Source: Treponema sp. (GTDB taxonomy: Bacteria; Spirochaetota; Spirochaetia; Treponematales; Breznakiellaceae). Taken from it: DNA of 53,123 nt. Shown piece after piece: positions 41,862-48,411 of this stretch (its first letter is position 1; each line of letters begins with the position of its first letter). The position numbers and the translations under genes are program-made. The notes below the pieces were generated by a model that worked only from the letters and a program-made list of their open reading frames with translations, had not been told where the DNA came from and did no database searches. Where the stretch lies: the NCBI GenBank assembly GCA_009787775.1, contig WQSQ01000003.1, positions 1-53,123 of the forward strand, read 5' to 3'.

Positions 41862-44255
41862 TTACATTTCCAGCACTACTTCATTCTCCGATTTAAGTAT
41901 TGAAGCGGGAATATAACTGTCTTTCATCGCTTCTCCGTTGACTGTCAGTTTCCGGCAGCCGCATTCTTTTCCTTCACTGTTATTAACTTTTATGTTAAGT
42001 TTGCATCCGCGGAAAACTTTTTCCATTGTAAATGATTTCCATCCTGAGGGGATTGAAGGCGACAGGAGAAGACCGTCAATATCAGGTCTTAGTCCCAAAA
42101 TTCCTTCCACACAGCCGACCATGACCGTGCTTGCGGTTCCTGTAAGCCAGTGAACATGACTGCGTCCTTCAAACGGACTGTCCGAGCTTTCTGTAAATTG
42201 GGAGTAAACATACGGCTCCACAAGGCGCGTATCCGCTATTCCGTTTTGAGCGGCAGGGCAGCTTTCAAGGTAATATTCAAGTGCGCGTCCGCCCCGTCCA
42301 AGAAGAGCTTCCGCGAGAATCAGCCAGCCCTGAGACTGCAGGAAGATGCCGCCGTTTTCTTTTGTAGACGGATTAAAGAGAAGCGCAAGAGCGCCGTCGA
42401 ACGCGTGTTTTACATAGGATGGAGCCATAAGGCGCGCGCCGTATTTTGTGTTTAGTTCTTTATATACTAAATCGAGTATTGCTTTGCTTCGCGTGTCATC
42501 GGCGAAACCGGAAATTACCGCCCAGCTTTGCGGATTAAGCCACATGCTTGCTTCCGGATCGCCTGCTTTGCCGACTGTCATATCGTTTTCCGTGATGCCG
42601 CGTACAAACCGGTCCTTGTCCCAGCATTTATCTTCCATTATTTTTCCAAAACGCGCTTTGAGCTCCTCCATCTGCTTTTCTGCTGTGGAATCTTTTTTGT
42701 GTTTAGAAAAACGGATCATAATATCGAACGCATAATAAAGCTGCATTGCGACAAAAACAGACACTCCGTTTGCGCCTAACCTTAGACAGTCGTTCCAGTC
42801 GGCATGAAGCCCTGCGGGAAGCCCGTGAATGCCCAAATGGTTAAGCGAAAAATCGATCGCTTTCTTTAGATGATTAAACAGCGTATCCTGTCCTTTATCG
42901 GCGTACGGAATAATTTCGTCCAAAAGCGCGGTATTGCCTGTTTCCGATATGTATTTCCATACTGTCGGGAAAAGCCACAGCGCGTCGTCGGCGCGGTATG
43001 AGGGGTGGCCCGTTCCCTGTTTGTAGGAATTATCTTCCGGTTTATCTTCGTGTCCGGGATTGTGGTTAAACTTTACAAGCGGAAGAGCGCCGCCGTGGCT
43101 GACCTGCCCTGAAATCATAAACTTGATTTTATCAAGGGCCATTTCCGGATCCAGATGGATGATGCCCTGAATATCCTGAACCGTGTCGCGGTAACCGTAA
43201 CCGTTCCGCTGTCCGCAGTAAATAAGGGAAGCGGCGCGCGACCAGATAAACGTAATAAAACACTGATACGCGTTCCATGTGCCTATCATGCTGTTAAAGT
43301 TATCATCAGGAGTTGTTACTTTCAGGTTATCAAGTTTTTTGTGCCAATATGTCTTTAGCTCTGCGATTTCGCGTTCGGGAAGAGAAGCGTCTTCATAACG
43401 GGCGATAAGCTCCTTTGCCTGCGACTCACGTTTTTGCCCAAGCAGGAAGGCAAACTCCGCGCTTTGGCCTGGAGCAAGCTCCATTGCTGTATGAAGAGCG
43501 CCGCACGGGTTCATGTTGTAGTTAAGCGTACCGTCAAGTCTGCCGTTTTCCACAGAGACGGGGTTTCTGTAATCATGATAACTGCCCAGAAACTTCGCTC
43601 TGTCCCCGCAGTAACTTGCGGCTTTCGCTCCCGCAAGGCCGAAGAAGCGTGTCTCAACGCGGCTTTCGTTGACCGCGTTCAAACAGTTTTCATTTATTGT
43701 CTGTAATATAAATTTTTCCTTAAAGTAAGTGCGGGTAATAAACTGAGTATATTGAAGATTAACCTGATCCTGTTCATAAAAACTTTCGCATGTAAACTCG
43801 GCATAGCCAAAACATGAGATTTTCCGCGGTTTTGATCCCTTGTTGGTTACCTTCACTTTCCAGACTTCATGTTCAGCGCCGTGCGGCACATAATATAGAG
43901 CCTGCGACTGTATACCGCTGTACTCTGCTTCGATTACGGTATAACCAGTACCGTGGCGGCAGACCGATTTATACTGATCCAGCGGTTTCCCGACAGGCTG
44001 CCAGGAGGCTGACCAGTAATCATTATTTTCGTCATCGCGCAGATAGATGTAGCGGCCTGGTTTATCCTGCTCGTTAAAACGGTAACGGATTATTCTTCCC
44101 GCGGCCCCGCTTTTTACAAAGCTGTAACCGCCCGCGTTGTTTGAAATAATCGCTCCGTAAGCCGGAGATCCAAGGTAATTCGCCCAGGGAGCGGGCGTAT
44201 CCGGCCTGTCTATAACATATTCCCTCTGTATATGATCAAAATAGCCATATTTCAT
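41862..44255 (-). CDS. GH94 cellobiose phosphorylase
   Basis: A 797-residue glycoside phosphorylase that splits cellobiose with phosphate into glucose 1-phosphate and glucose, saving one ATP. It starts MKYGYFDHIQREYVIDRPDTPAPWANYLG, as cytosolic GH94 enzymes do, with no signal peptide. HADWNDCLRLG (about 483-493) contains the catalytic Asp, and AVISGFADDTRS and HWLTGTASTVMVG are typical later motifs. Length fits cellobiose phosphorylase (about 800-810). Other GH94 specificities (e.g. chitobiose) are less likely but not excluded. GGGGG precedes the ATG, and the gene has its own promoter. Confidence 0.92.
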   Translation of the reverse strand: MKYGYFDHIQREYVIDRPDTPAPWANYLGSPAYGAIISNNAGGYSFVKSGAAGRIIRYRFNEQDKPGRYIYLRDDENNDYWSASWQPVGKPLDQYKSVCRHGTGYTVIEAEYSGIQSQALYYVPHGAEHEVWKVKVTNKGSKPRKISCFGYAEFTCESFYEQDQVNLQYTQFITRTYFKEKFILQTINENCLNAVNESRVETRFFGLAGAKAASYCGDRAKFLGSYHDYRNPVSVENGRLDGTLNYNMNPCGALHTAMELAPGQSAEFAFLLGQKRESQAKELIARYEDASLPEREIAELKTYWHKKLDNLKVTTPDDNFNSMIGTWNAYQCFITFIWSRAASLIYCGQRNGYGYRDTVQDIQGIIHLDPEMALDKIKFMISGQVSHGGALPLVKFNHNPGHEDKPEDNSYKQGTGHPSYRADDALWLFPTVWKYISETGNTALLDEIIPYADKGQDTLFNHLKKAIDFSLNHLGIHGLPAGLHADWNDCLRLGANGVSVFVAMQLYYAFDIMIRFSKHKKDSTAEKQMEELKARFGKIMEDKCWDKDRFVRGITENDMTVGKAGDPEASMWLNPQSWAVISGFADDTRSKAILDLVYKELNTKYGARLMAPSYVKHAFDGALALLFNPSTKENGGIFLQSQGWLILAEALLGRGGRALEYYLESCPAAQNGIADTRLVEPYVYSQFTESSDSPFEGRSHVHWLTGTASTVMVGCVEGILGLRPDIDGLLLSPSIPSGWKSFTMEKVFRGCKLNIKVNNSEGKECGCRKLTVNGEAMKDSYIPASILKSENEVVLEM

Positions 44256-44282
44256 AATAACCCCCGTTTTACTGATTAAGGT

Positions 44283-44311
44283 ATTATACTAGGCATACAC
44301 ATTTTTATCCA
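44283..44311 (-). promoter_or_regulatory. Promoter of the GH94 gene
   Basis: Minus strand TGGATA (44306-44311), 17-base spacer, perfect TATAAT (44283-44288), 27 bases before the ATG. Confidence 0.6.
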
Positions 44312-44463
44312 GTTTATTGTAAAATAAACACAGCGAACAGGCGGGAGTACAACGTAATGAGACAGAGCGTTTCTTCCGCGGAATAAAATCTTTCAGATTT
44401 AAGGTATTTTCTCGCATCGTTCCATGGTATTCTGATACAAAGTTCCTGCCTTAACCTATATAC

Positions 44464-44641
44464 CACTTTAGTCCATAGTGAAACTACACTTTAGCCTATA
44501 GTAATATGTCACTATAGACTGTAGTTAATGTTCACTATAGGCTAAAGTGAACTATCACTATAGTCTATAGTGGAATATCACTTTAGGCTATAGTGACAGC
44601 TTACTATAGGCTGAATGATGAACCTAGTCAAAGGCTGAATA
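44464..44641. repeat. Array of eight 17-bp palindromes on an exact 23-bp period
   Basis: Units start at 44464, 44487, 44510, 44533, 44556, 44579 and 44602, exactly 23 bases apart, with a degenerate eighth at 44625. The consensus is CACTWTAGNCTATAGTG; the unit at 44556-44572 is a perfect palindrome around its centre base. Spacers are 6 bases, A/T-rich and different from each other. Units 2 and 4 are close to reverse complements of each other. The last two units decay. Not CRISPR: repeats are palindromic and spacers too short. It lies between the nifJ terminator and the GH94 promoter. Confidence 0.9.
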
Positions 44642-44780
44642 AGACGCCTGTTAACGCTTAAACTGCCTGTTGTATCAGCCAAGTCTTGACGCGCCTGCTC
44701 TTTAAACCTGGTTCCTGGAACCTAAGCGTACCATGCTATTGTTTTGTCCATGTGTTGCCACCAGCAGTTCGTGATAAGGT

Positions 44781-44834
44781 AAAAAAAATCGGGGGTAATA
44801 GTCCGTAAGCAATTACATTACGAACTATTACCCC
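44781..44834 (-). terminator. Intrinsic terminator of nifJ
   Basis: Arms GGGGTAATAGT (44792-44802) and ACTATTACCCC (44824-44834) form an 11-bp stem with an inner CGTAA / TTACG stem. On the minus strand the hairpin is followed by a run of eight T (44781-44788). It starts 16 bases after the nifJ stop codon. Confidence 0.9.
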
Positions 44835-44850
44835 TGTCCCAATCCTCAGT

Positions 44851-47800
44851 TTAGAACGGTCTTTCAGATAAATACTTGTACTCTTTCCAGATGCGCTCCG
44901 CCTGTTTTTTCGCTTTTGCCAGCAGCATGTCGGCGCGCGCCGGGTCTGCGGCTTTAAGGCTCTTAAAGCGGACTTCCTTATACATGAAGTCCTCAATTGC
45001 AGTGGTTGCTTCTTTACTGTCAAGCTGGAAGGGGTTCTTGCCCTGATCTTTAAGGCGCGGGTCGTACCGGTAGAGCGGCCAGAGTCCGCTTGTGACGGCG
45101 GCTTTGCCCTGTTCAAGACCCTTGCTCATGTCGATACCGTGGTTGATACAATGCGAGTAAGCGATGATGAGTGACGGGCCGTCGTAAGATTCAGCTTCAC
45201 GGAAAGCCCTGATTGCCTTATTCATGTCCGCGCCGAGAGAAATCTTCGCAACATATACATAACCGTAGCTCATTGCTATCGCGCCGAGGTCTTTTTTGAC
45301 AACATCTTTTCCCGCGTACGCGAACTTCGCAATTGCGCCTACAGGTGTTGATTTTGACATCTGACCGCCTGTGTTGGAATATACTTCCGTATCCAGACAG
45401 AGCAGGTTAACGTTTTTACCGGAAGCGAGAACATGATCCAGTCCGCCGAACCCGATATCATAAGCCCAGCCGTCTCCGCCGAAGCCCCACACCGATCTCT
45501 TAATAAAGTGGTCGGCAAGAGAGAGCAGCATTTTCGCTGTCGGGCTGTTATTCCCCTTAAGCGCGGCTTTAAGCTCGCAAACATTTTTATGCTGTTCATT
45601 GATGGCGGCATCGTCAGCCTGTGCATTTGCAAGCAGTTTGTCTATGATCGCAGCGGCGATACCTTCATCTTTTGCTTTGGCAGCCATTTCGCGGGCATGA
45701 ACAGCCAGCTTGTCGCTCGTAAGCCTGAAGCCAAGAGCGAACTCCGCGGCGTCTTCAAAGAGCGAGTTTGACCACACAGGACCTCTTCCTTCGGCGTTTT
45801 TACAATAAGGCGTTGTCGGCAGGTTTCCGCCGTAGATAGATGAACAGCCTGTGGCGTTGGCGATTAAAGCTCTGTCTCCGAAAAGCTGCGACATAAGTTT
45901 TACATAGGGCGTTTCGCCGCAGCCGCCGCAGGCGCCTGAGAATTCAAACAGCGGGCGTTTATACGCAAGAGCTTTTGGATTATTAAGATCGCCTGCTGCC
46001 GGTGTTTCAGGAAGGCTCAGGAAATATTCCCAAACAGCAGCCTGTTCAGTGTGGAATACAGGATCATCCGCATAAGACTTCCTTGAAAGAGCAGCTGGTT
46101 TTCCTGCATCCTTCGACATCGGACAAATATTAATACATAGCCCGCAGACGCCTGAGTCCATGCAGTCTTGGCAGGAAATCGCGAGTGTTGCTTTTAAGCC
46201 GTCTGCCGGTTTTGGTTTAATTGCCGCTGATTTGAAACCTTTCGGCGCTTTGGCGGCATCGGCATCACTTACGTTTTTCATGCGGATACAGCCATGCGGG
46301 CAAACCACAGAACAATTACCGCACTGTATGCAAACATCGGGGTTCCAAACAGGAACAAGCTCCGCGACTGAACGTTTTTCATACTGGGTTGTCGCCGTCG
46401 GGAATGTTCCGTCTTCCGGGATTTTACTGACAGGCAGTAAATCACCGTTCTGGAACGATACAGCGCCAAGCGTTTCCTTAATCCATTTATCTTTTGCTGT
46501 GGCAAACGGCTCTTTCATATGATGGCTGCCGTCAACAGCGGTATATTTTACTTCTTTGACCGCTCCCAATGCCGCATCTACCGTTTTATAGTTCTTTTCT
46601 ACAACATCCGCGCCCTTTTTACCGTAAGATTTTTTAATGTGTTCTTTCATCAGGCTGACAGCTTCGGTTTCCTGCAGTACGCCGGAAATCTTAAAGTAAG
46701 CCGCCTGCATAACAGTATTTATGCGGTTGCCCATTCCGGTATTGCGTGCGATTTCCGCGGCGTTAATGACATAAAATTTAAGCTTCTTGTCAATGATTTT
46801 TTTCTGAACTTCAACAGGTATTTCTTTCCATACATCAGCCGCGTCGAACGGGCTGTTAAGAAGGAACGTTCCGCCTTCTTTAATACTCTTGAGCATGTCA
46901 TACATTTCCATGTAGGCGAACTTATGACAGGCAAGGAAGTCAGCGGCATTGATAAGGTAAGGTCTTCTGATTTTATTTTTACCGAAGCGAAGATGCGAAA
47001 CTGTAAAACCGCCTGATTTCTTGGAGTCGTAAGAGAAATATGCCTGACAGTTAAGCTCCGGCTTTGCTTCGCTGATGATCTTAATTGAGTTTTTGTTCGC
47101 GCCGACAGTTCCGTCAGAGCCGAGACCGTAGAACAGCGCTTCATTCATGCCTTCTTCGGTAATGAAGAAATTATGATCATAATCAAGGCTCTTGCCAAGA
47201 ACATCATCTTTAATGCCGACAATGAAGTTTGCGATTTTTTTACCTGATAAGTTGTCAAAAACAGATTTCGCCATTGAGGGGGTAAACTCTTTTGAACCGA
47301 GGCCGTAGCGTCCGCCGAGAATTAAAGGATTAGCGCTGAACTCGCCTGCGGCCTGCATTTCTGCGACAGCAGTGCGGACATCTTCATAAAGAGGTTCGCC
47401 GAGTGAGCCAGGCTCTTTTGTGCGATCCAGAACCGCAATTGATTTTACAGATGCCGGCAATGCTTTTACAAATAATTTCGCATCGAACGGGCGGAAGAGG
47501 CGCACTTTAACCAAACCGGTTTTTTCGCCTTTACTGTTCAGATAATCGATTGTTTCTTCAACAGTGTCAGCGCCGGAACCCATGATGATAATAACCTTCT
47601 CTGCGTCTTTCGCGCCGTGATAATCAAATATTTTATATTGGCGCCCTGACAGTTTTGCGAATTTATCCATTTCCGCCTGAACAATGGCTGCGGTTTTTTC
47701 GTAATATTTGTTAACGCCTTCCCGGCCCTGGAAATAAGTATCAGGGTTCTGCGCTGTTCCGCGCATAGTCGGGTTTTCGGGGGTAAGGCCTCTCTTTCGG

Positions 47801-48411
47801 TGTTCAGCTACAAGGTCGTCATCGATCATCTTGTGCATGTCATCGTAGGAAATCTCTTCAATCTTCTGAAGTTCGTGGCTTGTACGGAAGCCGTCAAAGA
47901 AGTGCAGGAATGGCACTCTTGAACGCAGAGTCGAAGCATGCGCGATAAGAGCCAGGTCCATTACTTCCTGAACATTATTCGAGGAGAGCATAGCCCAACC
48001 GGTCTGGCGGCAGGCCATTACATCCTGATGGTCGCCGAAAATGGAAAGACTTGATGTCGCAAGAGCGCGGGCAGATATATGGAATACGGTAGAGGTAAGT
48101 TCACCCGCGATTTTATACATATTGGGAATCATCAGCAATAACCCCTGAGATGCGGTAAATGTAACAGACATTGCGCCTGTTGTAAGCGCTCCGTGTACTG
48201 CTCCTGCCGCTCCCGCTTCTGACTGCAATTCTACGACATCAGGGACAGAACCCCAGATGTTCTTGCGCCCCTGGGCGGAAAACTCATCAGAGAGCTCTCC
48301 CATCGGGCTGGAAGGGGTAATCGGATAAATCGCGATTACTTCGCTGAGCGCGTGGGCAACATGAGCCGCCGCGTTATTACCGTCAATCATTGCAATGATT
48401 TTTTCTGACAT
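44851..48411 (-). CDS. nifJ: Pyruvate:ferredoxin (flavodoxin) oxidoreductase
   Basis: A 1186-residue single-chain enzyme that converts pyruvate and CoA to acetyl-CoA and CO2 while reducing ferredoxin or flavodoxin. Domains in order: alpha-type pyrimidine domain (IYPITPSSPMGE near 28), transketolase-C-like region, gamma-type domain (about 415-615), two [4Fe-4S] motifs (CIQCGNCSVVCP about 690 and CQDCMDSGVCGLCINICP about 745), then the TPP domain (CGGCGETPYVKL, NATGCSSIYGGN and GDGWAYDIGFGG). All key cysteines appear present. Length is typical. GAGGAA precedes the ATG, with a good promoter upstream and a strong terminator downstream. Confidence 0.97.
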   Translation of the reverse strand: MSEKIIAMIDGNNAAAHVAHALSEVIAIYPITPSSPMGELSDEFSAQGRKNIWGSVPDVVELQSEAGAAGAVHGALTTGAMSVTFTASQGLLLMIPNMYKIAGELTSTVFHISARALATSSLSIFGDHQDVMACRQTGWAMLSSNNVQEVMDLALIAHASTLRSRVPFLHFFDGFRTSHELQKIEEISYDDMHKMIDDDLVAEHRKRGLTPENPTMRGTAQNPDTYFQGREGVNKYYEKTAAIVQAEMDKFAKLSGRQYKIFDYHGAKDAEKVIIIMGSGADTVEETIDYLNSKGEKTGLVKVRLFRPFDAKLFVKALPASVKSIAVLDRTKEPGSLGEPLYEDVRTAVAEMQAAGEFSANPLILGGRYGLGSKEFTPSMAKSVFDNLSGKKIANFIVGIKDDVLGKSLDYDHNFFITEEGMNEALFYGLGSDGTVGANKNSIKIISEAKPELNCQAYFSYDSKKSGGFTVSHLRFGKNKIRRPYLINAADFLACHKFAYMEMYDMLKSIKEGGTFLLNSPFDAADVWKEIPVEVQKKIIDKKLKFYVINAAEIARNTGMGNRINTVMQAAYFKISGVLQETEAVSLMKEHIKKSYGKKGADVVEKNYKTVDAALGAVKEVKYTAVDGSHHMKEPFATAKDKWIKETLGAVSFQNGDLLPVSKIPEDGTFPTATTQYEKRSVAELVPVWNPDVCIQCGNCSVVCPHGCIRMKNVSDADAAKAPKGFKSAAIKPKPADGLKATLAISCQDCMDSGVCGLCINICPMSKDAGKPAALSRKSYADDPVFHTEQAAVWEYFLSLPETPAAGDLNNPKALAYKRPLFEFSGACGGCGETPYVKLMSQLFGDRALIANATGCSSIYGGNLPTTPYCKNAEGRGPVWSNSLFEDAAEFALGFRLTSDKLAVHAREMAAKAKDEGIAAAIIDKLLANAQADDAAINEQHKNVCELKAALKGNNSPTAKMLLSLADHFIKRSVWGFGGDGWAYDIGFGGLDHVLASGKNVNLLCLDTEVYSNTGGQMSKSTPVGAIAKFAYAGKDVVKKDLGAIAMSYGYVYVAKISLGADMNKAIRAFREAESYDGPSLIIAYSHCINHGIDMSKGLEQGKAAVTSGLWPLYRYDPRLKDQGKNPFQLDSKEATTAIEDFMYKEVRFKSLKAADPARADMLLAKAKKQAERIWKEYKYLSERPF

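Follow-up and report, generated by a model that had tools for sequence, protein, structure and literature searches.

A 23-bp-pitch array of palindromes in a Treponema genome as a candidate row of binding sites for a dedicated HU/IHF-fold protein

In bacteria, ParB/parS, Noc and MatP/matS each combine a gene for a DNA-binding protein with an adjoining site and further sites on the chromosome, intergenic and dispersed palindromic arrays are known as BIME/REP and neisserial NIME elements, and phased dyads or repeats that are bound by dimers beside a regulator gene are found as C-protein boxes and iterons. HU-type proteins are textbook DNA binders with little sequence preference. Their superfamily, HU/IHF, includes a group with an immunoglobulin (Ig)-like tail (HU-DNA_bdg PF14848, HU-HIG PF18291, DUF4469 PF14734), of which one member, BVU_2165, has been solved (4fmr). 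Among spirochaetes, non-coding, intergenic and transposed satellite families with repeats of 46, 46, 46 and 69 nt, and also 37 nt, are listed for Leptospira interrogans (PMC6749651, Table 2). Here we describe an array of 17-bp palindromes in a 53,123-nt stretch of Treponema sp. DNA (assembly GCA_009787775.1, contig WQSQ01000003.1, positions 1 to 53,123; hereafter the window) which, judged from sequence comparison, would probably provide one dedicated protein of HU/IHF fold with successive binding sites, the candidate being the product of the C11 gene of the same genome.

The window array (44464-44618) consists of six 17-bp dyads and a half-decayed seventh, in steps of exactly 23 bp. Compared to the pattern CACTWTAGNCTAWAGTG (CACTWTAGnCTAWAGTG), the six units have 1, 1, 2, 0, 0 and 0 mismatches in order. 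Six matches stand against 0.44 expected in the window, none of 100 shuffles attained six, and Tandem Repeats Finder called the same array, which bears out an earlier sequence-only reading of 17-bp palindromes with an exact 23-bp period. That reading had counted seven units 23 bases apart; six are good, the seventh (44602) has kept its left half, which is also conserved in other copies of this array family (family A), but not its right half, and the degenerate eighth that it placed at 44625 actually lies inside a right flank shared by other copies. The features are as follows, with their basis in brackets.

44464-44480, no strand: unit 1, 17-bp dyad CACTTTAGTCCATAGTG (pattern match and step measurement)
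44487-44503, no strand: unit 2 (pattern match and step measurement)
44510-44526, no strand: unit 3 (pattern match and step measurement)
44533-44549, no strand: unit 4, no mismatch (pattern match and step measurement)
44556-44572, no strand: unit 5, no mismatch (pattern match and step measurement)
44579-44595, no strand: unit 6, no mismatch (pattern match and step measurement)
44602-44618, no strand: unit 7, only left half TACTATAGGCT retained, right half decayed (unit blocks)
44392-44463, + strand: left flank common to other family-A copies, TATTCTGATACAAAGTTCCTGCCTTG and upstream (blastn of flanks and alignment A1)
44619-44693, + strand: right flank common to other family-A copies, covering the supposed eighth unit and terminating in TTGACGCG (blastn and alignment)
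1-116, no strand: second array of the window with 23-bp pitch, family C (GCGTCAAGnnTTGGTGT), a family found beside the C14 HU-like gene (Tandem Repeats Finder and family comparison)

The assembly that contains the window (G000; 2.04 Mb in 109 contigs, 71% complete), probably from a treponeme of the termite gut to judge by the labels of related records, holds many such units. At no more than two mismatches the unit pattern gave 137 matches compared to 2 for a reversed control, two tandem units gave 119 compared to 0, and a search with the whole element recovered 24 family-A loci across 19 contigs. In the 23 loci fetched with their flanks, window included, all 120 unit-to-unit steps were 23 bp and all 109 half-site spacings 8 bp. 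None of the 22 non-window loci lies within an open reading frame (ORF) of at least 70 amino acids (aa), although three run 2-25 bp into the end of an ORF. The scanned neighbours are mostly unrelated housekeeping genes (gyrase B-like, CarD-like, IMPDH, FTHFS, TsaD, FtsJ-like, enolase, CysS, CheA-like) and no common theme was found among them. The sequence-only reading had asked whether copies lie by one gene or are scattered; the units are scattered over the genome and not tied to one gene.

Mean pairwise identity over ten family-A copies with seven units in register was highest in AG/CT (0.95) and in the outer arm bases (0.94), followed by the left flank (0.86), the nn bases (0.83), the spacers (0.62), the right flank (0.59) and the central base (0.40). 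Since the arms are conserved and the centre and spacers vary, selection on the half-site ACTnnAG (ACTnnAG-n-CTnnAGT) is indicated, and this pattern would be the expected trace of sequence-specific recognition of double-stranded dyads. Arms at 94-95%, spacers at 62% and centre at 40%, together with the fixed pitch, thus agree with the earlier proposals that the spacers are variable and that the units are selected protein-binding sites instead of slipped repeats. Whereas CRISPR arrays have conserved repeats and unique spacers whose length is near-constant at about 30 bp, the pitch here is 23 bp and the 6-bp spacers are related between copies at homologous positions.

In G000 three DUF4469 genes and three array families are matched one to one. 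Within 700 bp, the C11 gene (G000:C11:22208-22966) has 9 A half-sites and no B or C, the C14 gene 4 C and 1 A, and the C24 gene 6 B. A family-A array abuts the 5' side of the C11 gene, a family-B array (TGTACnAGnCTnGTACA) begins 13 bp past the C24 gene and a family-C array (GCGTCAAG..) lies 404 bp upstream of the C14 gene. Because of this matching, the window array is taken as a scattered site of the C11 protein. Sampled stretches of G000 (381 kb) contained 13 period-23 arrays, all of families B (8) and C (5); as these stretches were partly picked to avoid known family-A arrays, family A is under-represented in this count. Family B has 59 units in G000 at no more than one mismatch (control, 1). 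At positions 1-148 of the window, one B-like half-unit (TGTACAAGTCT at 132) comes after the family-C array and continues its 23-bp phase; the families meet in register there.

HU-DNA_bdg plus DUF4469 (PF14848/PF14734) genes stood beside arrays in three genomes, and the family was therefore mapped in 29 selected genomes, namely eight with array matches, one with a weak profile match (G118) and 20 others. It was present in 11 of them: seven of the eight array-matched genomes, G118, and three of the 20 others (G010, G047, G066). An array with a period of 23, 46 or 69 bp lay within 150 bp of 39 of the 60 DUF4469 gene loci, compared to 8/227 and 11/253 other ORFs in array-bearing genomes and 1/220 in controls, with control ORFs of at least 150 aa (Fisher, 39/60 versus 19/480: 8e-30). 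A linked DNA-binding protein, which the sequence-only reading had proposed to seek by co-occurrence, was found in this way. Over the 300 bp past the stop codon, autocorrelation at lag 23 reached 0.688, the other listed lags giving 0.37-0.40, while on the 5' side of the genes lag 23 gave only 0.424; values of at least 0.59 at lag 23 were obtained in 36/56 DUF4469 loci compared to 6/225, 9/248 and 0/215 ORFs. In the 41 loci with a Tandem Repeats Finder row of period 23 within 500 bp, which make up the gene-array summary, the unit consensuses are palindromic (4.32 compared to 2.12 +- 0.21 in shuffled sequences) and mostly unlike one another, bar a common centre. Their commonest 6-mer, AAGGCT, occurs in 9/41 (shuffled mean 0.46, maximum 3), and the pitch is nearly always 23 although the words vary from gene to gene. 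In the 3' flank of L228 (G047), a 26-bp tandem repeat (CGTCATTGCGGGAAGCGCAGTGAACC) separates the gene from its 23-bp array.

The C11 protein matches PF14734 (E 1.2e-24) and PF14848 (E 2.2e-14), and among its aligned relatives (alignment A3, the longer 44 of the 60 loci) PF14734 was found in 44/44, PF14848 in 40 and PF18291 in 4. The predicted fold agrees with the solved member 4fmr; by profile and predicted fold the candidate belongs to the Ig-tailed group. Those rows of the fold search that showed Ig-like domains of unrelated proteins were given no weight as regards function.

In a second draw from the same phylum, the family was present in 20/149 genomes, and 15 of 27 previously unused loci reached 0.59 at lag 23 compared to 15/473 random ORFs (p 1e-13); two of the second-set loci, L266 and L269, have a near-identical 3' flank. 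A Tannerella genome gave seven matches; six are whole genes, each followed past its stop by a period-23 array (in one case the flank is just 72 bp), and the seventh is a broken fragment; the words of one of these arrays (L255) resemble those of a scattered array in L040. In three records from a single Parabacteroides distasonis strain, the arrays 3' of the gene have pitches of 24, 23 and 23 bp. In all, the link between gene and array extends across two phyla. As a sign of co-evolution, close gene pairs (at least 75% DNA identity, n=12) had an array likeness of 14.33/18 compared to 11.85/18 for pairs without gene similarity (p 4e-4). The main alignments of gene pairs begin no more than some 60 bp 5' of the gene and reach up to or into the array, and within one genome additional similar patches occur outside the gene-array alignment. 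L186 and its 82%-identical relative L189 have common words at 24 and 23 bp.

A public genome collection contained 36 stretches with an exact unit, of which three (two Treponema and one Tannerella metagenome assembly) have 23-bp chains and the rest are lone matches; tandem units occurred in 5/196 related genomes, G000 included, and the element profile matched 9/117 related genomes. The relatives G041, G064 and G023 have longer arrays, of up to about 46 units, with still other words. Among 14 control genomes (326 kb sampled), three of which (G047, G066, G118) were later found to carry DUF4469 genes, one period-23 array was seen, in G047; one further set of scanned stretches was partly chosen on array-bearing contigs. 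Long arrays with a period of 21 or 22 bp are present in the same genomes (L130 8766-10015, L131 and L133 in G041; L122 12984-13251 in G064; L139 6510-7058 in G000), at least one of them traversed by an open frame and none linked to DUF4469 in the data examined. In G064, L102 1616-1932 holds a second 23-bp array (TTGAAACTGGGGTAAGTCAGACC, 14 copies) that is not obviously palindromic and adjoins a palindromic one. A link to 23-residue leucine-rich repeats (69-bp arrays, L076, L087) was dropped, as no 23-bp sub-period was called there.

Several observations weigh against the assignment of these arrays to HU-like proteins. Known HU proteins are weakly sequence-specific, and the IHF match of the predicted model was modest and outside the Foldseek top 50. 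Of the 60 DUF4469 loci, 21 have no array within 150 bp and 15 none within 500 bp even at 22-24 bp, some but not all of these loci being fragments or contig ends; in the second set, 12/27 loci lacked the signal, including distant low-scoring but also some high-scoring members. G026 (67% complete) has an array and no DUF4469 match, G010 and G066 carry the gene without a clear array, and a few paralogues have another pitch (L186 and L263, 24 bp; L217, 22 bp). In G118 (one contig), the one unit tested was found almost only at its own genes, so that scatter is not general. Finally, array and protein similarity over all paralogues are uncorrelated (Mantel r 0.02, p 0.31), only close pairs agreeing; from this lack of correlation, the words seem to turn over fast.

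Taking both sides together, we judge it likely that the C11 protein would bind the array. Each 17-bp unit consists of two half-sites ACTnnAG about a free central base and would be bound by a dimer; with the 23-bp pitch (about 2.2 turns), neighbouring dimers would come to lie next to each other, at almost the same rotational position on the DNA, where they may touch, perhaps via the Ig-like domain, and bind cooperatively. The conserved centre might serve all these proteins for contact or bending, with the arms spelling the word private to each. Because an array adjoins the gene, autoregulation is suggested, to which we give an even chance for the gene-adjacent array; because arrays are scattered, chromosomal addressing is suggested, and scattered arrays such as that of the window might enable the protein to organise chromosomal sites, bridge them or silence them locally, although a role in chromosome architecture is in our judgement somewhat less than an even bet. 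More broadly, and tentatively, there may be an undescribed chromosome-addressing system in Spirochaetota and Bacteroidota, in which a separate palindromic word, at a near-universal pitch of 23 bp, is read by each paralogue of the HU fold, a reference array stands beside the gene, copies mark the chromosome, words and proteins diversify fast, and a cell holds several independent 'address books', three in the present genome.

An unlikely alternative is that the HU-like protein and its private array form a fast-diversifying self/non-self or selfish system, with the scattered arrays as self marks. HU-HIG proteins were reportedly predicted, in the 2017 survey of HU/IHF clades by Burroughs and colleagues, to act against mobile elements. 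A conflict of this kind would fit the patchy distribution of the family (0-16 copies per genome), the close genes L182 and L185, which have unlike arrays in spite of 82% DNA identity, and the pair L192/L228 from two genera, in which gene and array align and the intervening DNA does not. However, no recurring nuclease or toxin partner was seen downstream of the HU-like genes (the downstream gene is on the same strand in 35/45, and 32 of these 35 were scanned), and no phage record carries the DUF4469 protein.

Flanking sequence is common to many family-A copies, roughly 60-93 bp of it on the left and some 100 bp on the right; these copies occur in either orientation with unrelated genes around them, and several are near contig ends. 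The array might accordingly be cargo or terminus of a non-autonomous element of about 300 bp, resembling a miniature inverted-repeat transposable element and spread by a transposase whose sites are the palindromes, the HU-like gene being incidental. The sequence-only reading had also raised a mobile element, and the shared flanks speak for that part, but the ends of similarity vary between copies (in the window copy, likeness to other copies stops 72 bp 5' of the array in blastn of flanks and, compared to L074 and L076, 98 bp past unit 6), no end repeat was recognised by eye, and neither terminal inverted repeats nor target-site duplications could be established. Moreover, at least L072, L075, L077, L081 and L086 lack the left flank motif, no transposase was present among 30 scanned neighbour proteins in G000, and arrays adjoin HU-like genes in many genomes, which together make this explanation improbable. 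Viral contigs gave 0 exact matches to a pattern of one and a half units, and blastn of the array gave none in phages and, in plasmids, a single 38-bp match in a Pseudomonas record. A few family-A copies are preceded upstream by a different dispersed repeat, about 230 bp long and apparently non-coding (L078 1-438, L084, L069 3522-3753).

The window array lies between the start of a 797-aa ORF (41862-44255, - strand) and the stop of a 1186-aa ORF (44851-48411, - strand), about 210 bp upstream of the start of the former, which the sequence-only reading labelled cellobiose phosphorylase. It could be a local operator that regulates one of these neighbours, the 24 arrays then forming a regulon, and four other copies (L070, L071, L072, L083) indeed sit between divergent genes. 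We consider this quite improbable: other copies are in convergent or tandem positions beside mixed neighbours, the 32 genes scanned downstream of HU-like genes belong to no common family, and a private operator of the cellobiose phosphorylase gene is disfavoured because the units are scattered over the genome.

It is very improbable that the units act as transcribed RNA hairpins (5-bp stem, 7-nt loop) bound by a protein, for example in the 3' untranslated region of the HU-like gene. The window element has a favourable predicted fold (-96 kcal/mol, z -7.35), the arms of paralogues differ yet remain complementary, and the array is mostly 3' of the HU-like gene. Conversely, the RNAalifold covariation term was +1.6, which gives no support to an RNA consensus fold, arms within family A are near-invariant instead of covarying, mismatches on the mRNA strand (53 G-T compared to 46 A-C) have no wobble bias, and copies also occur between divergent genes. 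The RNA or DNA hairpins proposed earlier thus gain no support from covariation or G-U wobbles. The claim that changes mostly keep the two-fold symmetry fared no better: in 61 distinct arm pairs from 22 family-A arrays of G000, the inner bases (positions 5/13) were complementary in 43% compared to 53% when shuffled, so that the variable inner bases are not compensated. No long-hairpin centre stood out when one was sought, and in Rfam the region 44200-44900 had 19 matches at E<=5, all below gathering score, the best being long microRNA hairpins.

A functionless satellite, produced by tandem duplication of a palindrome with drift, is barely credible, for although some arrays elsewhere are near-identical tandem copies including spacers (G026, 94% matches), in G000 the arms are conserved and only the centre and spacers vary freely, every step keeps phase, and arrays accompany one gene family.

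If the binding of dedicated HU-like proteins to these arrays is true, highly specific recognition of many different sequences can evolve on the HU fold, the genome itself supplying the sites, and the 41 gene-array pairs could serve directly as data from which to derive a recognition code. DUF4469/HU-HIG proteins, which are uncharacterised and of which some are from culturable gut bacteria, would gain a concrete and testable function, and a class of intergenic satellites that lacks an explanation in these genomes would be accounted for. The array is probably a docking strip for one HU-type protein, which would point to a so far unexplored means of chromosome marking in bacteria. In a literature search, with subscription papers mostly outside it, nothing tied the PF14848/PF18291/PF14734 group to a DNA site and the term DUF4469 was absent; search results on satellites, termite-gut Treponema tandem repeats, 23-bp repeats and Leptospira variable number tandem repeats showed no apparent link between a gene and an array.

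Compared to the systems introduced above, the present case differs from ParB/parS, Noc and MatP/matS by its HU fold, its longer arrays, its fixed 23-bp pitch and the several paralogues with different words per genome. C-protein boxes and iterons involve other protein folds, have few units and are not scattered, whereas BIME/REP and NIME elements differ from these arrays, which have an exact 23-bp pitch and a linked HU-like gene. The Leptospira interrogans satellites are likewise intergenic and transposed, and their repeats of 46 and 69 nt are multiples of 23, but the part of PMC6749651 that deals with them describes no unit palindrome or linked gene. Within the Ig-tailed HU/IHF group to which the candidate is predicted to belong, private phased palindromic arrays beside the genes are the feature of the present case.
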